DNA of 61,405 nucleotides from Actinomycetota bacterium (GCA_030840805.1 JAVEDU010000089.1:1-61405); one strand, 5' to 3'; numbered from the stretch's first letter, positions 30,532 through 42,684 are shown. The notes: generated by a model not told the origin, from the sequence alone. Made by a program: numbers and translations.

Positions 30532-31857
30532 TCAGCCGCAGCTCGGCACGGTCGCGGAGGGCAGGAGTCCGACCGTGAGCTTCGCCGTGCCGCTCGTCAG
30601 GCACAGCACCCGCCCGGGTGCGGCCCAGCGGGACGTGACCGGCTGACCGGCGGCGAACCGCGGGCGCAGCCAGTTCAGCGCGTACGTCATCGGCAGGGCG
30701 TTGCCGCCGGACGCCGTCGAGGTGTCCGTCCACAGGGCGACCGACGTCAACGTCGGCCTGGCCTCGGGCTGCCAGAGCAGCACCACGGAGGCCCCGGCCT
30801 GCCGCACCTGGAGCAGCGCGTCGACCGCCACCGCGGAGCGCTCCCGGGAGCCCGCCCAGTTGTGGGGATCACGCATGCCGGGGTAGAACTCCGCCCACCA
30901 CACCGGCAGGGTGGTCTGCTGACGGATCCAGGTGGTGATGACCGCGAGCTTCCGGTTCGCCGTCGACTCGTCGGTGATGACGCCCTTGTCCTTGGTGGAG
31001 TTCCCGCCGTCCACCGCGATGAAGTCCGCCCCGGCGGCGTTCGCGAGCCAGTACCTGATCGCGTCGAGGTCCCGCTGGTCGACCACACCCCACGGTCCCC
31101 GGAGGGCGGAGGGGTGCGACATCGTCGCGGCGTTGCTCCAGCTGTTGACGACGAGGTAGGGCCCACCGACCTTGATCGCCGGGTTCACGGCCTTCAGCGC
31201 CCGGTACACCGTGTTGTAGAAGGCCGTGTACGCCTCGATGTTCCACCGGTTGCGGGAGGTGTCCCAGAAGCCCTTGAGCTCGTTCCAGACCATGAAGTGC
31301 TTCACGTCGGGGTAGCGCTTGGCCACCGTGGCCGCGAGCCGGGCGTAGTCGTCGTAGTGGTCGGGGGTCGGCGCGATCGCGAGCCGGGACCAGTCGGTCG
31401 TGCCTGCGGCGCCGCCCTTCATCCAGTCCGGCGAGCAGCACAGCGTGAGCACCGGCGTCCCGCCGTTGCGGCGCATGAGGTCCACCCGGGCGTCGAGGGT
31501 CGACCAGTCGTACCTGCCCGGGGACGGCTCCGGGCTGAGCGCGCCGAAACCCATGATGTGCTGGTTCTGGAGCGCCGCCGCGCTGCGCAGCGCGGTCTCC
31601 GCGCGGTCACGGGACGCGGCCGGGTTCCACTTGTCGGCGCTGTACTGGGTGTGGGTCACCCCGACCGACAGACCGCCCACGCTGCCCGTCGGACCGGCCG
31701 CGACGGCCATCCGTACCGGCGCGGGCTTGACGGCCCGGCCGGGTGCCGCCTCGGCCGGGGTACCCACGGTGACCGCGACGAGCGCCGCGAGTGCCAGACC
31801 GAACACCGAGCGTGTCACTCCTCGGAACCGACGAGGGGTGGAGGAGTCGTTGATCAT
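30532..31857 (-). CDS. Secreted glycoside hydrolase, clan GH-A (GH39-like)
   Basis: 441 residues. Sec signal peptide (residues about 1-38: basic RRFRGVTRS, hydrophobic VFGLALAALVAVTVG, cleavage after PAEA). TIM-barrel with the acid/base Glu in VWNELKGFWD and the nucleophile Glu in WWAEFYPG, as in beta-xylosidase/GH39 and related clan A enzymes. A short C-terminal beta region follows. Start ATG at 31857. It is the last gene of the polysaccharide operon, 77 bases after a small membrane-protein gene, so it may trim or release the polymer made there. Substrate unknown. Confidence 0.88.
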   Translation of the reverse strand: MINDSSTPRRFRGVTRSVFGLALAALVAVTVGTPAEAAPGRAVKPAPVRMAVAAGPTGSVGGLSVGVTHTQYSADKWNPAASRDRAETALRSAAALQNQHIMGFGALSPEPSPGRYDWSTLDARVDLMRRNGGTPVLTLCCSPDWMKGGAAGTTDWSRLAIAPTPDHYDDYARLAATVAKRYPDVKHFMVWNELKGFWDTSRNRWNIEAYTAFYNTVYRALKAVNPAIKVGGPYLVVNSWSNAATMSHPSALRGPWGVVDQRDLDAIRYWLANAAGADFIAVDGGNSTKDKGVITDESTANRKLAVITTWIRQQTTLPVWWAEFYPGMRDPHNWAGSRERSAVAVDALLQVRQAGASVVLLWQPEARPTLTSVALWTDTSTASGGNALPMTYALNWLRPRFAAGQPVTSRWAAPGRVLCLTSGTAKLTVGLLPSATVPSCG

Positions 31858-31934
31858 GAAGTCATCATCGACTCGGCAGCGTACCGGGTTGAGTCTCCAG
31901 CCGAATTCGTCGGCGGTGAGACCGAGTGCCGCGG

Positions 31935-32171
31935 TCAAGCGATCTGAACCCACACCCGGAGGGCGAGCGCTGCCACGAGCAGCACCGTGCCCAGGGCGAG
32001 CGCCCACCCGCTCCCCCGCCGGAGGGCCGACGGCCGGCGTCGCCCCTCCGGCCCGGCGAGCTGGGCCGCGACGGCGCGCGCCGTGGCGATCAGCACCACG
32101 ACGGCACAGAGCACCCCGGCCGCCAGGCTCAGGACATGAGGCTGGAGTACGGCGTCCATCGGCGTGCTCAC
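31935..32171 (-). CDS. Small membrane protein in polysaccharide operon
   Basis: 78 residues, two predicted transmembrane helices (VLSLAAGVLCAVVVLIATARAV and GWALALGTVLLVAALALRVWV) joined by a basic Pro-rich loop. No family recognised. GTG at 32171 overlaps the stop of the polymerase-like gene upstream (GTGA), so it is translated with it. Perhaps an accessory or assembly subunit. Confidence 0.75.
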   Translation of the reverse strand: MSTPMDAVLQPHVLSLAAGVLCAVVVLIATARAVAAQLAGPEGRRRPSALRRGSGWALALGTVLLVAALALRVWVQIA

Positions 32172-33889
32172 TCTCCCTGGGTACGTGCTCGGAGGGCGAT
32201 TCCTCCGGGCCCGGAGGTCATCACCTCGTATCGTCCGGACCGGACCAGCGCGTCGACCTGCCCGTCGGCCCAGGCGGCGGGCGAACCCCTGGAGAGCTCA
32301 CCCCACCGGACCATCGAGCGGGTGAACAGGACCACGTCGGCGGAGCGGTCTAGCGCGCACGGCACGACCTCGAGCTCTCCGTCGCACACCACCGCCACCG
32401 AGCCGTACCGGATCTCCCCGACGCGCGCGATCCGGACCGGCCCCTGCTCCTCGGCGAGCAGCAGGAGCCCGCCGGCGGGGACACTGTCGACGGCCTCGCT
32501 GGCGAGCGAGAGTTCCGCCGGGGTCACCAGCGAGAACCCGTCGTTGCCCCCCCGCGTGAAGACCAGGGTGCACGCGACGGCCGAGACGGCGACGAGCACG
32601 ACGCCGCGGCGCCAGACGCCGGGCGCGGCCCGGTGCCGCCGGGCCTCGCGGGCGCCCCATGCGGCCCATAGGGCCTCGCCCACCAGCACCGAGAGGTACG
32701 GGAGCCCGAACAGCGCACAGCGCATGTACAACTCGCCGCCGTAGCTCTGCAGCGGCGTCACGATCCACGGGACCGCGGCCAGGAAGACGAGCAGCCTGAC
32801 CGGGCGGCCGCGCCGCGCCCGGATCCGGGCGCCGAGCGCGGCCACGAGCACGACCAGCCCGAAGGTCGCCACCCGCACGAGGCGCACCACGACCAGTCCG
32901 GGGTCGCCCTGGGACAGCCGGTTGGTGACGTTGCTGCCGACCGACCCGCCGACATCCCCGAACCCGTCCGTCAGGAGGGCGAGCTGCCCGGTCCAGAACT
33001 CCCGGGCTCCGATCACGAACCAGGTCAGCTCCGCGACGATCAGGACCAGCAGCAGGGACCGCACCCGGCGGTCACCGGCCACCAGGAGGCAGAGCAGCTG
33101 GATGCCCAGCAGCGGCGGCGTGAGCTGATGCGAGACGACGATCGCCAGTTCGGCGAGCACGCAGACCGGGATGACGGCCGCGCTCAGGACGGCGGCCCGC
33201 CGCCCGGTCGGGTTCCGGGTGCCCAGGAGCAGCACGATCACGCCGAGCGCGAGCAGGAACGCCACGGCCTGCGGGGAGAAGTAGTCCTGCTCGATCCAGT
33301 TCGTCACGGTGACCACGCCCGCCGCCAGCCAGGCGACCGGCCGGGGGCTGCCGGCGTACCGGGCGAGCCACAGCGTCAGGGCGGCGATTCCGGCCGCGAC
33401 CACGACCGGGAACCAGTTGGCGACCGCGACGAGGTCGAAGCCACCGGCGCCGCGCAGCAGCCCCGAGGCCGCGAAGAACCCGGGCCAGCTGAAGCGGGCG
33501 TCCACCCCGGTGGCCACCGCGCCGTCCGTGACGAACCGCTCGACGAACCCGAGGTGCAGCCACACCGTCGTGGTGCGCGGCAGGCGCTCGGTCAGCGGCT
33601 GCAGCCCGTACAGCACGAACACGAGGACGACGAGCAGGACCGCCGCGCCCCGCTCGGAGAACCGAGGCCGGGCGACGTGGCCCACGAAGGCTCCGGTGAC
33701 GAGGACGATGCCGGCCCACACCGGCCAGGGCAGCGCCGGTGCCAGCCCGAAACCACCCAGGTCGCTCAGGTCGACAGAGGCGCTCCCGACCCCCCACAGC
33801 ACCAGGCCGCCGGCGGCGGCGACCGCGGCGGCGTGCCCGGCGGAGTACCGCCGCGTCACGTCCTCGGTGCGTTCCGTCGTGGTCGTCAC
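32168..33889 (-). CDS. Polymerase-like/GT-C-like multi-membrane protein
   Basis: 573 residues with about 11-13 membrane helices and a C-terminal soluble domain (about 455-570). Not matched to a named family with certainty; it resembles Wzy-type polymerases or GT-C glycosyltransferases. Key motifs DARFSWPGFF (about 130-139) in an extracellular loop, NWIEQDYFSPQA (197-208), SHQLTP and LQSYGGELYMR all recur in the middle domain of the 1222-residue protein, so the two are paralogues over their whole length, soluble tail included (NDGF near its start, RYEV near its end). Start GTG at 33889, coupled to the upstream acyltransferase gene (GTGA). Likely polymerises or transfers sugar units outside the membrane (inference). 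Confidence 0.85.
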   Translation of the reverse strand: MTTTTERTEDVTRRYSAGHAAAVAAAGGLVLWGVGSASVDLSDLGGFGLAPALPWPVWAGIVLVTGAFVGHVARPRFSERGAAVLLVVLVFVLYGLQPLTERLPRTTTVWLHLGFVERFVTDGAVATGVDARFSWPGFFAASGLLRGAGGFDLVAVANWFPVVVAAGIAALTLWLARYAGSPRPVAWLAAGVVTVTNWIEQDYFSPQAVAFLLALGVIVLLLGTRNPTGRRAAVLSAAVIPVCVLAELAIVVSHQLTPPLLGIQLLCLLVAGDRRVRSLLLVLIVAELTWFVIGAREFWTGQLALLTDGFGDVGGSVGSNVTNRLSQGDPGLVVVRLVRVATFGLVVLVAALGARIRARRGRPVRLLVFLAAVPWIVTPLQSYGGELYMRCALFGLPYLSVLVGEALWAAWGAREARRHRAAPGVWRRGVVLVAVSAVACTLVFTRGGNDGFSLVTPAELSLASEAVDSVPAGGLLLLAEEQGPVRIARVGEIRYGSVAVVCDGELEVVPCALDRSADVVLFTRSMVRWGELSRGSPAAWADGQVDALVRSGRYEVMTSGPGGIALRARTQGE

Positions 33890-34416
33890 AGGTCGCGGAT
33901 CCGCCGGGCGGGGACGCCGCCGTAGACGCCGGGGTCGGTGAGGTCCCGGGTCACCACCGAGCCCGCGGCGACGGCGACGTCGGCCGCGATCCGGACTCCC
34001 GGCAGCACCGTGACGCGGGCGGCCAGCCAGACACGGTCGCCGATCGTCACCGGCCGGTACTCCGGCACGCGCGACACGCCCGCGGGGCCGATCTCGTGGT
34101 GACTCGTGAGGATCATGACCTCCATGCCGAGCTGGCAGTCGGCACCGATGGTGATCGGCGCGACGGCCTCGAAGAAGCACCGCTGGTTCACGAACGTGCC
34201 CGAACCGATGTCGAGCCGGCTCCCGACGACGCGGCAGTTCCGCCCGATGTTGGCGGTCCGGAGGCGCAGGCCGAACGCACGGTAGACGAGGAACCGGAGC
34301 GGCCTTGGCGCCAGGGGCGATCCGGCACACCAGTCGAGCGCGATGTGCCGCCACGCGCCGCGCAGGTCGTCCCGGCACGCCCGGACCAGGAGCGCGGCCC
34401 TCGCCCGGTGCGTCAC
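33886..34416 (-). CDS. Hexapeptide-repeat O-acyltransferase (WcaF/NodL-like)
   Basis: 176 residues. Left-handed beta-helix hexapeptide repeats (about 55-165: IGRNCRVVGSRLDIGSGTFV, VTIGDRVWLAARVTVLPGVRI) and catalytic His in TSHHEIG. The family O-acetylates sugars using acetyl-CoA in the cytoplasm. The N-terminal 50 residues are helical, as in Wca/Wcm-type enzymes. Start GTG at 34416; its ends overlap both neighbours (four bases each). Likely modifies the repeat unit of the polysaccharide. Confidence 0.92.
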   Translation of the reverse strand: MTHRARAALLVRACRDDLRGAWRHIALDWCAGSPLAPRPLRFLVYRAFGLRLRTANIGRNCRVVGSRLDIGSGTFVNQRCFFEAVAPITIGADCQLGMEVMILTSHHEIGPAGVSRVPEYRPVTIGDRVWLAARVTVLPGVRIAADVAVAAGSVVTRDLTDPGVYGGVPARRIRDL

Positions 34417-35480
34417 GATCGCACCAGGCGCGGCTCACCGAGGACCGACTCCGCGAGGAGCGCCACCTCCTCGCGGAGCGCGCTCCGCAGCGCCGCGACC
34501 TGGCCGTTCATCCGCGCGACCGGGTCGGGCCCGGCCGCCCGGACCACGGCCTCGACCAGCTCGGCCGGCCGGACCCGGTCGACGCGGAGACACTGGTCGC
34601 CGAGCCCGACCGACTCCATGAAGTCACGGCACTTCGGCTGGTACTCGAGCATCACGACCGGCACGCCCGCCGCCGCGGCGAGGACTCCGGCGTGGAGCCG
34701 CTCGGAGACCATCGCCCGGCAGGACGAGACCGCCACGAAGAACTCCGCGGTGGTGACCGTCCGGACGATCTCGCAGGAGCCCGTGGGGAGCGCGGCGGCG
34801 AGCTGCTCGGCGTGCACGAGATCGGTGTCGTTGAGGACGACGCACCGGATCCGGTGGCCGTCCGCCACCCACGACCGCGCTGCCTCGGTCACGCGGCGCA
34901 GCAACGCCTCGTGGTCGTGCCCCCAGAGGTCGTCGCCGTACCCGAGACTGACGGCGATCGGTCCGGAGCCCGCCTCGGCAGCCACCAGGCCGTCCGGCGG
35001 TGTGAGCAGCAGGGCCGGGTCGCCGACCACCGTGGCGTCCACGCCGACTTCGGCGAGGAGCGCCGCCGAGCGGGGACCGCGGACGGTGACCCGCTCGAAA
35101 CCGGCGAGCGGCCGCCGCCACCGGGCCAGCTCGTGCGGCCCGGAGAAGGAGTTGCGGCCCTGGAACGCCGGGTCCTCCACGCCGACCCCGACGAGGTGGC
35201 GGCGTCCTCCCGCGACCAGCCGGGAGACGGCGAGGACGGCGCGCCAGTTCGCCCGGCCCACGGCCGTACCGCCGCCCAGCACGAGCGGCCGGGTCGCGCG
35301 CCCGCGGACGTCACCGGCGAGCAGATGCCCCGCCACGCCGCCGACGCTGTGGGCGACGGAGACGAAGGCCGTTCCCGGCAGGAGGTTCGCGACGACCTCG
35401 TGGAGCGCGTCGTCGCCGAGGTTCCCGTTGCCTGACCAGCCGAGATACCCCACGGAACGCTGGCGGGTGTCCTGCGTCAT
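34413..35480 (-). CDS. Polysaccharide pyruvyl transferase family protein
   Basis: 355 residues of the CsaB/WcaK-type fold (GT-B-like). The N-terminal GWSGNGNLGDDALHE motif, VLGGGTAVGR, the VSERLHAGVLAAAAGVPVVMLEYQPK segment and the later helices match the family, which places ketal pyruvate on sugars of surface polymers using PEP. ATG at 35480 is chosen, with GAGG upstream; a GTG at 35483 is an alternative that would give a GTGA overlap with the upstream gene. Lies between the acyltransferase and the flippase fusion. Confidence 0.92.
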   Translation of the reverse strand: MTQDTRQRSVGYLGWSGNGNLGDDALHEVVANLLPGTAFVSVAHSVGGVAGHLLAGDVRGRATRPLVLGGGTAVGRANWRAVLAVSRLVAGGRRHLVGVGVEDPAFQGRNSFSGPHELARWRRPLAGFERVTVRGPRSAALLAEVGVDATVVGDPALLLTPPDGLVAAEAGSGPIAVSLGYGDDLWGHDHEALLRRVTEAARSWVADGHRIRCVVLNDTDLVHAEQLAAALPTGSCEIVRTVTTAEFFVAVSSCRAMVSERLHAGVLAAAAGVPVVMLEYQPKCRDFMESVGLGDQCLRVDRVRPAELVEAVVRAAGPDPVARMNGQVAALRSALREEVALLAESVLGEPRLVRS

Positions 35481-38400
35481 CACCTGTTCCTCACTTTCGT
35501 GGCCGGTCCCGTGGTGGACAGGACGGCCTCGCCCACCGCGTCCGCGACCGCCTGGGCACCCGCGCGGGTCGGGTGTACGCCGTCGAGGACGAACCCCGGT
35601 CGCCAGCTGCCGTCGGGCTCCGCCAGCACGCCGTGGAGGTCGACCACCTGCACTCCCTCGGCAGCCGCGGACCGGAGGAGGAGCGCGTTGAACTCCTCGA
35701 CCCGCTGGCTCCGGCGCCGGGTCTCGGCGGGATCGGTCGACTCCTGGGGCGGCAGGGTCGCGACCAGCGGTACCGCACCGGCCGCCCTCGCCTCCTCCGC
35801 CATCGCGAGGACGTCGGCCACGGCCTCGGCTACGTTCCGCCGACCCCACATGTCGTTGGTCCCGGCGAGGACGAAGACCACGTCCGGCCGGACGGTCCCG
35901 AGCAACGGGGACAGTCGCGTCCGGACCGTGGACGAGTACTCGCCGGGGACGCCCGCGTTGACGACGTCGCCCAGCTCGTACCGCGCGGTCGCCGCCACCA
36001 TCGCCGGCCACGCGCGCGATCCGCCCAGCCCGCGGGACGGGTCCGCGTCGCCGCGGGTGATCGAGTCGCCCATCGCGAGGAGCGTCGGACCGTGCCGCCG
36101 CAGCACGGTGATCCCCGTTGCCTGCGTCTCGACGCGGTACCGGTGGCTGGCGACCAGGTCGCGGATGATCTGCCGGGTCCAGCCGGCCGGGCGGCCCGAG
36201 ACGAGCCGGCCGTAGAGGTCCTGCTCCGCGGTGACCACGATCGCGGCGGGCGCGTCCGCGAGCGTGCACGCGACCAGCTTCGCCGGCTCGCGGCACACCG
36301 CGGTGAGCGAGACGTGCTCGATGTCCCGGATGCGGTCGAACTTCCACGGCAGGTACGAGTCGAGTGCCGCGATCTGGCTGCCCGGCGGGAGCTCCCGGTA
36401 CAGCTTGCGCACGGCGCTGATCTGCTCGCCGTCGATCCGGACGAAGCCGTCGTTCGCGGACCGGCCGACGAGGCCGACCCCGGACAGGACCAGCACGGCC
36501 GTCACGGCCGCGACCACCCGCCACGGCGCCGGCCGATCCGGGTGGCGCCGGCCGCCCTCGTGCCCGACGAGGGCGTGCGCGGCGAGCAACCCGAGCCACG
36601 GCAGGGCGAACAGCCAGCCGCGGAGGACGAGTTCGCCGCCGTAGCTCTGGACCAGCACGAAGGCGAACGGGGCGATCGCCATGCCGAGCAGGGCGAGGGT
36701 GGTCCGGCGCCGGGTCCGGGCCAGGCGGTAGGCCCCGGCGACCGCGAGCAGGCCGATGGTGAGCGTGAGGCCGATCCGGACCACCTGGGCCACCGTGCGC
36801 TCGGGGCTCCCGACGAGCCGGGCGCCGACGTTCTCGCCGACCACGTTGTTGACGGCGCCGATGTCCCGGGTCAGCACCCCGAAGTGGCCCGACCAGAAGC
36901 CCTCCGCGCCGAGGACGAGCCAGGTGAGCGGCAGGGCCAGGCCGATGACGATCAGGTCGGACAGGCGCAACCGGGCGAGCACCGCCAGCACCACGAGATC
37001 CGCCACGAGCATGAACGGGGTCAGCTGGTGCGCGACCGCCAGGGCGGTCAGCCCGAGGACCACCACGATCACGACGGCGGCCCGCTGCCGGGCGGGCGCC
37101 ACCGGCCGGGTGACGGCATCCTGCCCCAGCAACCGGCTCCACCGGCCCCCGCCGGCGACCCCGAGCGGACGGACCCGCGTGGTGGCGAGCACCGCCGCGA
37201 GGAGGGACAGGTGCAGCAGGTACGCCAGCGCCTGCGGGGAGTAGTACTCCTGCTCGACCCAGTTCCCGGCGAGGAAGATCCAGACGGCGAGCCACCGGGT
37301 GCGCTCGCCGAACCGCAGCGCCTTGCCGATCATCAGCAGCGGCGGGATCCAGGCGAGCACCGCGACGACCGGGGCCCAGGCGAGGAAGTCGACCGCGGAG
37401 GCGGAGCCACCGGCCCGGCCCACCAGGCCGGCGACCTCGAAGAAGCCCGGCCAGCTGAACCGCGCGTCGAAGTTCTCGATCACCGCGCCGTTGCGCGCGA
37501 TGTAGTCGGTCCAGCCGGCGTGCAGATAGGCGATCGGCAGTCGCGCGGCGCGGTAGACCAGGGGCTGCAGCGCGTACGTCTCAACGGCGAGCAGGACGGT
37601 GAGCACCGCCAGCCGGCTGCCCCGTGGGCGGCGCCGGGTGACCTCCACGCCCGCCGCGACGGCCGCGATCGCGAGGCCGACCCAGGCGAGCGGGTGGAGA
37701 GCGTCGACGAGGCCGAGGAGCCCGACGGACTCGGGGCGGGTCCACCGCGCGCCGACGACCCAGCACGCCGCGCTGGCCACGACCAGTGCGCCGGTGATCG
37801 CCCGGTCCGCGCCGGCGCCGCGGCGCACCGACCGCCGGTGCCGCGACGGACCGGCCCCGGCCACCGCGGGCACGGCGTCCAGGTCGACCGCCCGGAACGC
37901 CCGGACGAGGTAGGCCCCACCCAGGACCGCCACGACCGCGGTGGCCAGGACGTAGGCGGTGCCCACCCCGACGAGCGCGCCCGCGGGCGAGTCGGCGAGG
38001 TGCAGGGCCACGACCGCGCCGGCGAGCAGCGCCGCCGCGTGACCGACCTGCACGGCGACGACCGGACCGGGCCGGCCGAGGCACTGGGCCACGCCGATGG
38101 TGAACACGGCGACCAGGCGCAGCGCGCAGCCGATGGCGAGCAGGCGCAGGGCGGTGCCGCCCTCCTCGGCGTACCGCGCCCCGAACACCCGGAGGAACGG
38201 GTCGCTGAAGACGGCCAGCCCGAGCAGCGCCGGCACGAAGAACGCGACGAACCGGCCGGCCACCGACCGGGCCAGCGCCGCGATGCGATCCGGCGCCTGG
38301 GCGACCCGGACGACCAGGGAGGCGGTGAAGGTCGAGGCGGCGAGCTCGATGCTGGTGATGACGGACCAGGCGATGAAGAACACGCCCCCGACCGCGGCGC

Positions 38401-39148
38401 CCCCGAGCGCGGTCACCACGAGCGGCAGACCGTTGAAGGCCGCCAGCTGCGCCAGCTGGGCGATCCAGTTGCCGCCGAGGTAGCGGACGAGATCCCGCCG
38501 CGACGGCAGGGCGCCGGGCTCGCGCCGGCCCCGCAGCATCCCCGGCAGCGCGGCGGTGACCACGACGATGAGGAACGCGGCCGGAACCAGCCAGGCGGTC
38601 AGCACCCCGTACGCACCGGCGAACGCCAGCAGCGGCAGCGCGACGAGCCGGGTGATGCCGAAGGCCGCGTTCTCCGCCGGCACCCAGACCGCGCGACCGA
38701 GCGCGGTCAGCACCTGGTCCTGGAGCTGGAACACCGCCCACACGAGGACGGCGAGCACGTACAGGGCGACCCGGGCCGGGGTGGCCGGGGTGGCGTGGAA
38801 GACGAGCGGCGACATGGCCAGCGCCACGATCAGCGCGCTCCCGGTCACCGCCGCGTAGGCGCGGCGGAGAAACGGCCCGGTCTCCGAGCCCGCACCGGGG
38901 AGCCAGCGGAACAGGGCGCTGCCCATGTTGAGCTGTCCGATGCTGCTCGCCAGGAGCATCGCCGACACGAGCGCGCTCGCGTGACCGACCTCGACCGGCG
39001 TCAGGATGCGCGCGGCCACGACCCAGCTGACGAACCCCAGCGCGCCGACGAGCACGATGCCGGCGCTCAGGGCCCAGGCGTCGCGCAGCAGCGGTGCACT
39101 TCCGCCGGCGGTACGAGCCGCCCGGCGGACGGGTGCCGAGACGGTCAT
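35480..39148 (-). CDS. Tripartite fusion: Wzx/MurJ-like flippase, polymerase-like domain and SGNH hydrolase
   Basis: 1222 residues. Residues about 20-425 form a MATE/MOP-type polysaccharide flippase with about 12 helices (LLRDAWALSAGIVLVGALGF, RILTPVEVGHASAL). After a basic linker (SRHRRSVRRGAG, 435-446), residues about 450-1015 form a second multi-helix unit with DARFSWPGFF (561-570), NWVEQEYYSPQA (629-640), AHQLTP and VQSYGGEL, paralogous to the 573-residue gene product three genes downstream. Residues about 1022-1215 are an SGNH/GDSL domain with GDSIT (1027-1031), AGTND and DGVHP catalytic blocks; by topology it should lie outside the membrane. One protein could flip, extend and de-acylate or acylate the polymer (inference). 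The frame is unbroken and ATG at 39148 overlaps the upstream stop (ATGA). Confidence 0.9.
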   Translation of the reverse strand: MTVSAPVRRAARTAGGSAPLLRDAWALSAGIVLVGALGFVSWVVAARILTPVEVGHASALVSAMLLASSIGQLNMGSALFRWLPGAGSETGPFLRRAYAAVTGSALIVALAMSPLVFHATPATPARVALYVLAVLVWAVFQLQDQVLTALGRAVWVPAENAAFGITRLVALPLLAFAGAYGVLTAWLVPAAFLIVVVTAALPGMLRGRREPGALPSRRDLVRYLGGNWIAQLAQLAAFNGLPLVVTALGGAAVGGVFFIAWSVITSIELAASTFTASLVVRVAQAPDRIAALARSVAGRFVAFFVPALLGLAVFSDPFLRVFGARYAEEGGTALRLLAIGCALRLVAVFTIGVAQCLGRPGPVVAVQVGHAAALLAGAVVALHLADSPAGALVGVGTAYVLATAVVAVLGGAYLVRAFRAVDLDAVPAVAGAGPSRHRRSVRRGAGADRAITGALVVASAACWVVGARWTRPESVGLLGLVDALHPLAWVGLAIAAVAAGVEVTRRRPRGSRLAVLTVLLAVETYALQPLVYRAARLPIAYLHAGWTDYIARNGAVIENFDARFSWPGFFEVAGLVGRAGGSASAVDFLAWAPVVAVLAWIPPLLMIGKALRFGERTRWLAVWIFLAGNWVEQEYYSPQALAYLLHLSLLAAVLATTRVRPLGVAGGGRWSRLLGQDAVTRPVAPARQRAAVVIVVVLGLTALAVAHQLTPFMLVADLVVLAVLARLRLSDLIVIGLALPLTWLVLGAEGFWSGHFGVLTRDIGAVNNVVGENVGARLVGSPERTVAQVVRIGLTLTIGLLAVAGAYRLARTRRRTTLALLGMAIAPFAFVLVQSYGGELVLRGWLFALPWLGLLAAHALVGHEGGRRHPDRPAPWRVVAAVTAVLVLSGVGLVGRSANDGFVRIDGEQISAVRKLYRELPPGSQIAALDSYLPWKFDRIRDIEHVSLTAVCREPAKLVACTLADAPAAIVVTAEQDLYGRLVSGRPAGWTRQIIRDLVASHRYRVETQATGITVLRRHGPTLLAMGDSITRGDADPSRGLGGSRAWPAMVAATARYELGDVVNAGVPGEYSSTVRTRLSPLLGTVRPDVVFVLAGTNDMWGRRNVAEAVADVLAMAEEARAAGAVPLVATLPPQESTDPAETRRRSQRVEEFNALLLRSAAAEGVQVVDLHGVLAEPDGSWRPGFVLDGVHPTRAGAQAVADAVGEAVLSTTGPATKVRNR

Positions 39149-39576
39149 ACCTCCGATGCCGACCCGTCTCGCACCGCGGTGGCCGGCTCCGGCGTGGCGC
39201 GCGGCCGGACCAGCTGGCCGACGAGCAGGACGCCCGACCCGGCCGCGAGGACCACGACGGCGACCTCGGGACGCCAGGCGTGCGCGAGGACCATGCCCTG
39301 GGCGATCAGCACGAACACCGCGACGCTCGCGACGACCGAGAGGATCGCCGCGAGGGCGCGGTCGGGCAGCCGCAGGTACGCGAGCACGGACCAGCCCGGG
39401 ACGACCGCCGCGAACAGCACGGTGGCCGGGAGCCGGCCGGGGTAGTGCACGTCGGCCGCCGTCCCGACCCCGACCACGACGGCGAGGACGAGCGCGACAA
39501 GGGCGGGGGCCCGCGGAGAGCCCGGCGCGGGCTCCTCCACGGGCTCCAGAAGCTGGGTCGGGTCGTCAGCGAGCAC
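39145..39576 (-). CDS. Small membrane protein in polysaccharide operon
   Basis: 143 residues. A soluble acidic start (LADDPTQLLEPVEEPAPGSP) is followed by four predicted membrane helices (APALVALVLAVVVGVGTAADV, PATVLFAAVVPGWSVLAYL, ALAAILSVVASVAVFVLIAQG, VAVVVLAAGSGVLLVGQLV). It resembles the membrane bundle often attached to polysaccharide biosynthesis enzymes; no named family recognised. GTG at 39576 overlaps the glycosyltransferase stop by 11 bases and its stop overlaps the next start (ATGA). Confidence 0.75.
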   Translation of the reverse strand: MLADDPTQLLEPVEEPAPGSPRAPALVALVLAVVVGVGTAADVHYPGRLPATVLFAAVVPGWSVLAYLRLPDRALAAILSVVASVAVFVLIAQGMVLAHAWRPEVAVVVLAAGSGVLLVGQLVRPRATPEPATAVRDGSASEV

Positions 39577-41833
39577 GTGCCACCGCCACGCGCAGGCGCC
39601 GGGCGGCGTAGGCGCAGGGGCCCACGGCGATGCCGGCGAGCTCGGCGAGGGCGAAGCGCCGCGGGAAGCTCGCGCTCCGGGCATTGTTCTTCGCCGAGGT
39701 CGGCGCGAAGAGGAAGTGGGCCGCCCGCGGCAGCCGCCGCGCGACCTCCCACACGGTGGACTTGTCCCGCGCGGTCTGCGCGCACAGCATCGCGGTGATC
39801 CCGCGCCCGTAGCTGTGCAGCTGCCGGAGCAGCTCGTCGGCGTGCTCGCGGTGGTCGTGCCGGACCAGGGCGTCGGGTGCGTACGCGAGCACCCGGCCGG
39901 ACCGGATGACCCGGAGGAACAGCTCGAGGTCCTCGCCCGAGCGGCACGAGGTTCCCGGGCCGAGGTTCTCGTCGTAGCCACCGAGGGCGAGCAACGCGTC
40001 GCGGCGGAAGGCCGCGTTGTTCCCCGAACCGAATGCACCGGCGGCGAACGGGTACAGGCTCGGCCGGTCGTGGCGCGGGTCGAGGTCGAACCGCTTCGGC
40101 TCCAGTCCCTTCGCGAAGCCGCCGTACTGCTCGAACCACACCTGGGCGGGGGTGTCGAGGCGCCGGGCGAGCACGAGCCCGGTCACGCAGGCGACGTCCG
40201 GGGAGTCGAACGCCGCGACCAGCGACTCGATCCAGTAGCGGTCCACCACGACGTCGTCGTCGGAGAACGCCACGAACTCGCCCCGGGCCGCGGCGAGGCC
40301 GCGGTTCCGGGCAGCCGACGCGCCGGGGCGCTCCGACTCCAGGTACCGCACGCCGTTCTCCGCGGCGAACGCGCGCAGGGCGGTCGCGGACGACGTGTCG
40401 TCGTGCCCGTCGTCCACCAGCAGGACCTCGAGGTTCGGCCACTGCGTGGCGAGCACGGAGCGGATCGCGCGCATGGCCAGCTCGGGACGGCCCTTGGTCG
40501 GCATCACCACGCTCACCGGCGGCGCGTGCGCGTCCGGGGCGGCCGGCGGCGGCGGGACGTCCACGGCGCTCAGCTCGCCGAGCCTCGCCTCGACGGCCGT
40601 GATGTGCTCGGGGCGGTCCCACGGGACCTGGAGCAGCGCGAGCGGCGTACGGCCGGTGCGGACCAGCAGCTCCGCGCCACCGTAGGTCTCGCCGTCGTGG
40701 CGGCGCAGCGGGAGCGGAAGTCGGCCGTTCCGCAGGTCGGCGACGTCGACGTCCGCCACCAGCACCGGACGGAAGCGGGTGGCCCCGCCGGGCCGCGCGG
40801 CGCTGCCGCCGGGCTCGCCGCCCGCGTACTCCACGCCCGCCCCGGCGGCCGCGAGGCTGAGGCGGCCCCGGAGGTAGCCGATGCCGGCGGCGGCCACGGA
40901 CGCGACGATGACCGTCGCGGCCCCGGCGCCGGCGAGCCGGCCCCGGCCGAGCCGGCCCAGCTCACGGAGCACGGCGCGGGGCAGGACGTGCTGGACGTAG
41001 CGACGCTCGGTCTCGAGCGCGTCGTCGGGGCCGACGAGACGCGAGACCATCGCCTTGGAGACACCCTCGCCGAGCGACCGCCGGATCGCGTACCGCGGCT
41101 GGACCCGGTCCTCGGTCACGCGGTGGCGGACCTTGGCATCGGGCAGGTACCTGATCCGCGCACCGGGCCTGGCCTGGCGCAACCGGATGCAGAGCTCGGT
41201 CTCCTCGCACCCGGTCGGCAGGGTGCCGACCCGGCCCACCTGGTCGGAGAACACGCCGGCGAGATCGAAGACCTCACGCCGGAAGGCCATGGCGGCGCCG
41301 ATCACGTTCCGGACGTCCGCGTCCGTCTCGGGCATTCCGCGGTACGCGCAGCCGACGATCCAGTCGAGCTCCGGCGGGAACCAGGCGGGTCGCTCCCCGC
41401 CCGGCCACCGCGGCACCGGGGCCGTGCCGACACCGAGGACGTCGGGCTCCGCGAACGCTTCGACCATCGCGGCGAGCCAGCCCGGGTCGGCGGTCGCGTC
41501 GTCGTCGAGGAACGCGACGATGCTGCCACCACCGGTCGTGATTCCGGTGTTGCGCCCCCCGGAGAGGCCGCGCTTGCCGGCGTTGGGGACGACCGTCACC
41601 CGGTCGAGCCCACCGAAGGTCTCGGTGGCGCGGGCGAACAGCTCGTCGTTGTGGTCGATGACCACGACGACCTCGTCGCCCGTGGAGAGCTGCGAGGTCA
41701 CCGACCGCACCGCGTCGACGATGTCGTCCCAGCGGCGCATCGTGTACGCGCAGATGACGACCGACACCGTCTCCCCGAGGGGGGTACCGCTCCGAGCGAG
41801 GTCCGTGCCGACACCGGTGTCCGGCAGGGTCAC
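39566..41833 (-). CDS. Two-domain family 2 glycosyltransferase
   Basis: 755 residues with two GT-A glycosyltransferase family 2 domains. Domain A (about 20-300): VSVVICAYTMRRWDDI, nucleotide-sugar DxD in VAFLDDDAT, CEETELCIRLRQ. A linker of about 150 residues includes one hydrophobic helix (GAATVIVASVAAAGIGYL). Domain B (about 435-690): VSVVMPTKGRPELA, DxD in VAFSDDDVV, GEDLELFLRV. It transfers sugars from nucleotide donors on the cytoplasmic side, possibly two consecutive linkages. The GTG start at 41833 overlaps the upstream GT gene stop (GTGA). Donor sugars cannot be deduced. Confidence 0.93.
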   Translation of the reverse strand: MTLPDTGVGTDLARSGTPLGETVSVVICAYTMRRWDDIVDAVRSVTSQLSTGDEVVVVIDHNDELFARATETFGGLDRVTVVPNAGKRGLSGGRNTGITTGGGSIVAFLDDDATADPGWLAAMVEAFAEPDVLGVGTAPVPRWPGGERPAWFPPELDWIVGCAYRGMPETDADVRNVIGAAMAFRREVFDLAGVFSDQVGRVGTLPTGCEETELCIRLRQARPGARIRYLPDAKVRHRVTEDRVQPRYAIRRSLGEGVSKAMVSRLVGPDDALETERRYVQHVLPRAVLRELGRLGRGRLAGAGAATVIVASVAAAGIGYLRGRLSLAAAGAGVEYAGGEPGGSAARPGGATRFRPVLVADVDVADLRNGRLPLPLRRHDGETYGGAELLVRTGRTPLALLQVPWDRPEHITAVEARLGELSAVDVPPPPAAPDAHAPPVSVVMPTKGRPELAMRAIRSVLATQWPNLEVLLVDDGHDDTSSATALRAFAAENGVRYLESERPGASAARNRGLAAARGEFVAFSDDDVVVDRYWIESLVAAFDSPDVACVTGLVLARRLDTPAQVWFEQYGGFAKGLEPKRFDLDPRHDRPSLYPFAAGAFGSGNNAAFRRDALLALGGYDENLGPGTSCRSGEDLELFLRVIRSGRVLAYAPDALVRHDHREHADELLRQLHSYGRGITAMLCAQTARDKSTVWEVARRLPRAAHFLFAPTSAKNNARSASFPRRFALAELAGIAVGPCAYAARRLRVAVARAR

Positions 41834-42684
41834 AGGGACACCCTCGACTCGACGGCGGAGGCGGAGTGGGACCGGGCCTCGGGCACCACGATGACGCGGG
41901 CGACCGGGGCCGCCGGGGCGGGGGCGAGCGGACGCGCCGGCGGGAGGGCGGTGAACCGCTCGCGCAGGATCGTCGCGAGGACGCGGAACCCGTCCCGGAA
42001 CGTCCGGAGGTTGCTCTCCCCGAACCGCCGCTCGCTCTCGAAGCTCGGCACCTCGCGGATCACGAGCCCGGCCTTGGCCACGCGGGTGTTGATCAGGGTC
42101 TCGATCTCGAAGCCGTCGCCCCAGCGCGGGCCCGAGCGGTCGTGCGGGTCGGGCAGGGCGAACGTGGCGACGCAGTCCCGGCGGAAGGCGTTGTAGCCAT
42201 AGCAGAGGTCGGAGTAGCGGGTCCGGAACAGGAGGTTCGTGGTGCCGTTCAGGAAACGGTTCCCGAGGTCCCGAAGAAGGCTGATGTCGTCGCTGCCCCC
42301 ACCCAGGGCGAAGCGGGTGCCCTTGGCGTAGTCCGCGCCGGCCCGGAGCGGGGCGACGAAGCTCGGGATCTCGGCGGGGTCCATCGAGCCGTCGGCGTCG
42401 ATCATGACGATGTACTCACCGGTGCAGGCGGCGAAGCCGGCGGCGAGCGCATTACCCTTGCCCCGGCGGGCCTGCTGGACGACGACGATGTCGGGCCGGA
42501 TGCCGAGGGCCACCTCGACCGTGCCGTCCACCGAGCCGCCGTCCACGAGCACGATCTCGGTCACCGAGTCGGGGAGGGCCTCCAGTACGAAGGGGATGTT
42601 CCGGGCCTCGTTGCGCGTCGGGATGACCACGCTGATGCTCGGCGTACCGCCCCCGGGCACGGAGAGTTCCTCGTTCTGAGTCAT
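41830..42684 (-). CDS. Family 2 glycosyltransferase, polyprenyl-phosphate mannose/glucose synthase-like
   Basis: 284 residues, GT-A fold: ISVVIPTRNEARNIPFVLEAL, DGGSVDGTVEVA, MIDADGSMDPAEI (DxD) and a C-terminal RFGESNLRTFRDGFRVL motif typical of DPM1-like enzymes that charge polyprenyl phosphate. It lacks the C-terminal membrane anchor of some relatives. ATG at 42684 has GGGGG about eight bases upstream. First gene of the minus-strand polysaccharide operon; a structured leader (42700-42743) precedes it. It may start the lipid-linked repeat unit or supply a polyprenyl-phosphate sugar for the GT-C-like proteins. Confidence 0.92.
   Translation of the reverse strand: MTQNEELSVPGGGTPSISVVIPTRNEARNIPFVLEALPDSVTEIVLVDGGSVDGTVEVALGIRPDIVVVQQARRGKGNALAAGFAACTGEYIVMIDADGSMDPAEIPSFVAPLRAGADYAKGTRFALGGGSDDISLLRDLGNRFLNGTTNLLFRTRYSDLCYGYNAFRRDCVATFALPDPHDRSGPRWGDGFEIETLINTRVAKAGLVIREVPSFESERRFGESNLRTFRDGFRVLATILRERFTALPPARPLAPAPAAPVARVIVVPEARSHSASAVESRVSL

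Follow-up and report, generated by a model that had tools for sequence, protein, structure and literature searches.

Can a single membrane protein combine a glycan flippase, a glycosyltransferase and a hydrolase, and what would such a chain do? The question is raised by one gene of an Actinomycetota bacterium (GCA_030840805.1), located in a window, i.e. the whole stretch of DNA analysed, of 61,405 nucleotides (JAVEDU010000089.1:1-61405). A sequence-only reading of this window had described one unbroken frame of 1222 residues joining a Wzx-type flippase, a polymerase/GT-C-like membrane unit and an SGNH hydrolase. The gene and its units are the following.

35480..39148, minus strand: fusion gene, 1222 aa, MOP flippase, GT-C glycosyltransferase and SGNH hydrolase (open reading frame, codon pattern, model)
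37874..39103, minus strand: unit 1, residues 16-425, 12-helix MOP-superfamily (Wzx-type) flippase (fold and homologue matches)
36089..37828, minus strand: unit 2, residues 441-1020, two extra transmembrane helices, then a GT-C with a predicted extracytoplasmic C-terminal alpha/beta domain (AlphaFold2 model, fold matches)
37451..37468, minus strand: DARFSW motif in the first outer loop of unit 2, residues 561-566, with the putative catalytic acid D561 (conservation)
37235..37261, minus strand: W-x-x-Q-[DE]-Y-[FY]-S-P motif of unit 2, residues 630-638, with the second conserved acid E634 (conservation)
35504..36088, minus strand: unit 3, residues 1021-1215, SGNH/GDSL hydrolase with S1029, G1066, N1098, D1189 and H1192 (Pfam, fold, blocks)

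The frame starts with ATG and comprises 1222 codons with no internal stop. GC3 lies between 0.89 and 0.99 in all blocks along its length (13/13), which argues for one coding frame throughout. The sequence CGGAGGT, a GGAGG-type, Shine-Dalgarno-like element, is located immediately 5' of the ATG. No such element was present at the candidate internal starts of either junction (residues 406-457 and 1015-1026), and separate products from internal starts are hence disfavoured. The gene overlaps with its upstream neighbour by 4 bases and with its downstream neighbour by 1 base. Although the source is a draft assembly (4.46 Mb, 111 contigs), it is very improbable that two or three genes were joined by a sequencing or assembly error, because the GT-C to SGNH junction is independently present in two Actinoplanes-group genomes (at 45-46% identity), the MOP to GT-C junction is independently present in many genomes, and the codon pattern is even along the whole gene. 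The single unbroken frame described earlier is confirmed, and it encodes three folded units.

In an AlphaFold2 model of residues 16-1212 (pLDDT 86, pTM 0.67), these units have MOP, GT-C and SGNH folds. The models place the flippase at about 16-421, a low-confidence linker at about 425-440, the two extra transmembrane helices and the GT-C from about 441-445 to 1020 and the SGNH domain at about 1021-1212/1215. Unit 1 shows the two-bundle 12-helix MOP fold in the model. Among solved folds, WzxE matches it best (Z 29.7 over 387 residues, rmsd 3.7 A), and MATE transporters and MurJ rank next. In a single-sequence HMM search, neither the Polysacc_synt nor the MatE profile matched unit 1 of the fusion protein itself; among its homologues in the alignment, 13 of 51 are matched by Pfam Polysacc_synt, with 5e-13 as the best value. 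Unit 1 is a MOP/Wzx-type flippase, as had been proposed, and is predicted to flip a lipid-linked glycan. A sequence search of solved structures revealed no relative of the MOP unit or the GT-C unit. In the single-sequence search, Lipase_GDSL_2 was the only named Pfam family matched by the fusion protein, the other two units being identified via homologues and fold.

Unit 2, when modelled alone with AlphaFold2 (residues 441-1020), reached a pLDDT of 90. Oligosaccharyltransferases rank first among its fold matches, namely yeast Stt3 (VIA Z 22.3 over 421 residues) and AglB (20.8); the lower-ranked matches include ArnT (17.0), AftA (16.7), Pmt4 and ALG12, and Foldseek retrieved AglB (6e-8) and ArnT (1e-7). 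From these matches, unit 2 has a GT-C fold of the Stt3/AglB/ArnT/AftA class. Neither unit 2 nor its homologues matched any family in the Pfam and NCBIfam searches, the STT3 families included, and unit 2 therefore represents an unnamed sequence family. Its assignment as a Wzy is disfavoured, since no Wzy family of Pfam or NCBIfam matched the sequence and the top fold matches are all GT-Cs of the OST/ArnT/AftA type; Wzy is not among the matches listed, an absence which by itself is not proof. Of the polymerase/GT-C-like unit in the sequence-only reading, the GT-C part was retained and the polymerase was not. Within the GT-C family, D561 is D or E in 52 of 54 members and E634 in 53 of 54. An acidic pair is catalytic in other GT-Cs, and fold and position suggest D561 and E634 as the putative catalytic pair. 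Further conserved positions of unit 2 are W566, Q633, H707, E839 and R843.

The fusion gene belongs to a run of overlapping genes between 42684 and 32168, which is followed, after a gap, by a GH39 gene. Its neighbours are listed here in the direction of transcription.

41830..42684, minus strand: first operon gene, AglJ-like GT2, putative polyprenyl-phosphate sugar synthase (NCBIfam TIGR04182, 2.5e-35, below cut-off)
39566..41833, minus strand: protein with two GT2 domains, best NCBIfam model AglG-like (6.6e-93, below cut-off)
39145..39576, minus strand: TM4, small membrane protein of 143 aa with four helices as judged from the sequence, weakly DUF1616-like
34413..35480, minus strand: polysaccharide pyruvyl transferase, CsaB-like (family searches)
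33886..34416, minus strand: hexapeptide-repeat protein, putative cytoplasmic acyltransferase (sequence)
32168..33889, minus strand: second GT-C of the family of unit 2, stand-alone, 34% identical to unit 2 (sequence)
30532..31806, minus strand: GH39-like glycoside hydrolase with a signal-peptide-like N-terminus (sequence)

The operon (30532-42684) thus encodes a putative GT-A lipid-sugar synthase, a flippase and a GT-C together, and the earlier remark that it has no separate wzx gene was borne out. The cut-offs that the AglJ-like and AglG-like GT2 scores do not reach are the NCBI equivalog cut-offs. No initiating phosphoglycosyl transferase is encoded in the operon; the only Bac_transf initiating transferase of the host genome is located on another contig. 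This, together with the AglJ-like and AglG-like transferases at the head of the operon, points to polyprenyl monophosphate as the likely carrier. TM4 is probably a partner subunit of the GT-C. A role as GtrA-type flippase was rejected for TM4, for which no GtrA match was obtained and DUF1616 was matched weakly in 7 of 24 members. In several genomes, a TM4-type protein is fused to the N-terminus of the GT-C. The second GT-C may serve to attach another glycan, or it may act as a partner of the fused copy. In the tree it groups near Pseudonocardia-type copies, and two other loci (L092, L093) have two GT-C, two TM4 and a pyruvyl transferase per cluster, like the double GT-C operon described here.

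The locus had been attributed to a Wzx/Wzy pathway. In such an exopolysaccharide machine, the GT-C would polymerise flipped units, the SGNH unit would edit acetylation, and the GH39 enzyme, which may resemble that of PslG-type loci, would trim or release the polymer. The Wzx-like flippase is compatible with this attribution, as are the pyruvyl and acyl transferases, the secreted-looking GH39 and the two GT-Cs of the operon. However, the GT-C fold is of the Stt3/ArnT/AftA class and no Wzy was seen, the initiating enzyme is missing from the operon, and no co-polymerase gene was seen there. Fold class and missing initiating enzyme weaken the case for polymerisation, and we consider a Wzx/Wzy-type machine unlikely.

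Unit 3 matches Pfam Lipase_GDSL_2 with 9e-31, and its fold resembles GDSL hydrolases. The SGNH blocks I, II, III and V are present as GDSIT (1027), NAGVPG, AGTND (1095) and DGVHP (1189); GDSIT, AGTND and DGVHP had already been recognised in the sequence-only reading. In sequence, the solved structures closest to unit 3 are those of generic GDSL acylhydrolases, TesA and a sialate O-acetylesterase. In a search of a phage-protein library, the SGNH matches alone were noteworthy. Regarding its placement, the twelve MOP helices leave the linker inside the cell by helix count in the model, the two extra helices allow the first GT-C helix to start on the cytoplasmic side, and the C-terminal domain of the GT-C resembles extracytoplasmic AglB domains. 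Helix count and the known placement of GT-C C-terminal domains suggest that the SGNH unit is extracytoplasmic and sits on the outer C-terminal domain of the GT-C, which agrees with the outer side assigned to it before.

Acyl editing by the SGNH unit is plausible, and the hexapeptide protein is a possible source of the acyl group removed. Unit 3 could also be something other than an esterase: an acyltransferase like that of AT3-SGNH proteins, or a domain that binds glycans without catalysis. In OafB and similar AT3-SGNH proteins, which acetylate glycans, a membrane enzyme ends in an SGNH domain (PMC9833829), and the SGNH copies of the Actinoplanes group are without the oxyanion Asn. Both roles appear rather doubtful, though, since the SGNH of the fusion protein retains Ser, Gly, Asn, Asp and His. 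An acyltransferase is further disfavoured by the score of the AT3-SGNH Pfam family (0.036, below cut-off), far inferior to that of Lipase_GDSL_2, and by an operon with neither an AT3 nor an MBOAT partner: the Acyl_transf_3 membrane domain is absent from the fusion protein and the operon, and the AT3 gene of the host genome is located on another contig.

The GT-C family of unit 2 is frequent in Actinomycetota and occurs also in Chloroflexota and a few others. Its gene company is conserved: in 123 loci, the GT-C is accompanied by TM4 (111), GT2x2 (106), MOP (95), an AglJ-like GT2 termed GT2a (90) and GH39 (42). Among these 42 loci, the GH39 gene often sits on the opposite strand. MOP and GT-C share one frame in 26 of 122 loci and are adjacent same-strand genes in 43, while the MOP gene is farther off in 25 and absent from the stretch examined in 28; in many relatives it is directly upstream of the GT-C gene. 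The single-frame loci are typical of Streptomyces and occur also in Microtetraspora, Planotetraspora, Actinoallomurus, Solihabitans and others; none of them includes an SGNH. Flippase and GT-C appear from these layouts to be a functional pair that was fused more than once. One locus (L098:8013-11921, minus strand) has a MOP flippase, a GT2 domain and a GT-C in one frame, which makes it another kind of three-part fusion within this pathway. A plasmid search yielded partial MOP or MOP/GT-C matches only.

A combination of SGNH and GT-C was recovered from a 355-genome family search, in which large runs scored two candidates per genome. Besides the present fusion, the matches listed show it in two genomes of one genus and in no others: that of Paractinoplanes tereljensis (L171; L213/G723 is the same genome) and a second one (L212/G724). 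Further three-part fusions may exist in other genomes. The chain of the Actinoplanes pair consists of TM4, GT-C and SGNH, preceded by an AglJ-like GT2 and followed by GH39. Their clusters are without a MOP gene, and the most similar MOP proteins encoded by the two genomes reach just 28% identity. In the GT-C tree, the GT-C of the present fusion and the two Actinoplanes-group GT-Cs form one clade with a support of 100. The SGNH domains of the pair (L171:9708-10268, L212:11153-11713) read GGPDD or GGADD for GGTND; they have lost the oxyanion Asn but kept Ser and His, so that SGNH activity may not be conserved. Since the SGNH accompanies the GT-C also in the absence of a flippase, it belongs with the GT-C, and the flippase joined separately. 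The SGNH thus appears to have joined the GT-C once, and a MOP gene of the upstream type would have fused as well in this lineage or been lost on the other branch. The MOP-GT-C and GT-C-SGNH parts recur elsewhere, but the full three-part order was not found among the matches listed. A three-in-one scaffold as the defining idea, as in the sequence-only reading, is therefore not supported: flippase-GT-C fusions are common in Streptomyces and relatives, and the SGNH accompanies a GT-C without a flippase.

With moderate confidence, we consider the fusion protein to form the core, within the membrane, of a glycosylation system that uses a lipid carrier, combining flipping, extracytoplasmic glycan transfer and de-acylation on one chain. 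The layout of GT-A, TM protein, flippase and GT-C and the order AglJ-AglG-flippase-AglB favour a glycan that is assembled on a monophosphate, flipped and transferred outside. At the inner face, the glycan would be begun on polyprenyl monophosphate by the AglJ-like GT2 and lengthened to a short glycan by the AglG-like double GT2, and the pyruvyl transferase and the hexapeptide acyltransferase would decorate it. The MOP unit would then flip the decorated lipid-linked glycan, and on the outer side the GT-C unit would pass it on to an acceptor, either a protein or a cell-surface glycan. Finally, the SGNH unit would strip acyl groups, probably acetyl, from the donor glycan or the product. Against this proposal, the GT-C fold alone tells neither whether a single sugar or an oligosaccharide is transferred nor what the acceptor is, and the conserved GH39 gene also fits an exopolysaccharide polymerisation locus. 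That one chain channels the glycan from the flippase to the OST-fold GT-C and on to acyl editing by the SGNH, as part of an oligosaccharyl-transfer pathway that is widespread in actinobacteria, hitherto undescribed and analogous to haloarchaeal AglJ/AglG/AglR/AglB, is a tentative and rather improbable extension. A hand-over from MOP to GT-C is not needed for the GT-C/SGNH part, given the Actinoplanes relatives without a flippase in the cluster.

The transfer of a single sugar, as in decorations of the Gac/Gtr type, is possible if somewhat improbable. The flippase would move a polyprenyl-phosphate monosaccharide, and the GT-C would add it to a wall polymer. The fold matches to ArnT and AftA are in line with such a role, and the whole set in Actinoplanes is one GT2 plus the TM4-GT-C-SGNH fusion. 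However, a further GT2 or double GT2 is present here and in most relatives (106/123 loci), which suggests a longer lipid-linked glycan, and the usual cargo of MOP flippases are oligosaccharides. A single-sugar route would also follow the logic of GacI/GacJ/GacK/GacL and GtrA/B/C (PMC8035078).

Should flippase and transferase work as a single machine, their fixed 1:1 particle would make the hand-over of substrate across the membrane directly testable, a question shared with Wzx, PglK and AglR. The GT-C family is without a Pfam or NCBIfam entry though it resides in a conserved cluster in Streptomyces, Amycolatopsis, Micromonospora, Pseudonocardia and Chloroflexota. Judging from the fusions, flippase and GT-C, TM4 and GT-C, and SGNH and GT-C would be partners, which gives the cluster a first proposed function. 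The widespread, unstudied part is the flippase-GT-C pair of actinobacteria; the rare part, among the matches listed, is the added SGNH. The broader result is an unnamed GT-C family, common in Actinobacteria with a fused or adjacent flippase, that merits study.

All three folds are known, and so are membrane enzymes that carry an SGNH at their outer C-terminus. In the open-access literature, we found no description of a Wzx-Wzy, MOP-GT-C, GT-C-SGNH or three-part fusion, in agreement with the earlier statement on the latter. The fusion has a Wzx-like (WzxE) fold in common with Wzx/Wzy pathways, but its operon is devoid of a Wzy-like unit and of the enzyme that initiates them. Close relatives are the Paractinoplanes tereljensis and L212 proteins, which are 44-46% identical overall across GT-C and SGNH and have GH39 directly downstream and an AglJ-like GT2 upstream; in contrast to the present protein, TM4 takes the place of the MOP flippase and the SGNH is without the Asn of block III. 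The Streptomyces-type fusions (L083-L088, L095, L103, L104, L106, L107, L167, L170, L180) consist of the same MOP and GT-C families in the same order with the same neighbours (AglJ-like GT2, GT2, GH39). They differ in having no SGNH, a linker that is mostly longer (usually more than 80 residues, in a range of about 43 to 290) and a separate GT-C clade.

Among characterised systems, the AT3-SGNH acyltransferases OafB and OatA are likewise integral-membrane enzymes with a C-terminal extracytoplasmic SGNH (PMC9833829), but their membrane part is an acyl-CoA transporter/transferase, whereas the fusion has a flippase and a GT-C and scores below the cut-off of the Pfam AT3-SGNH family. In haloarchaeal N-glycosylation, dolichol phosphate carries the glycan that AglJ and AglG assemble, AglR participates in flipping, and the oligosaccharyltransferase AglB transfers the glycan (PMC4335974). 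The AglJ-like and AglG-like GT2s, the flippase and the OST-fold GT-C of our operon parallel this pathway, in which the carrier is a monophosphate, although the GT-C of the fusion scores against no STT3 family by sequence and the haloarchaeal components are separate proteins. Lastly, GacI/GacJ/GacK/GacL, GtrA/B/C and CsbB/GtcA/YfhO are multi-component transmembrane glycosylation systems, and a GT-A, a small TM protein, a Wzx-type flippase and a GT-C form a recognised set, e.g. in GacI/J/K/L (PMC8035078). The operon resembles these systems in its GT-A for a lipid-linked sugar, its small TM protein, its flippase (Wzx-type or GtrA in the known systems) and its outer-side GT-C. In contrast to their separate proteins, flippase, GT-C and SGNH reside here on one chain, and more than one GT2 domain precedes it.
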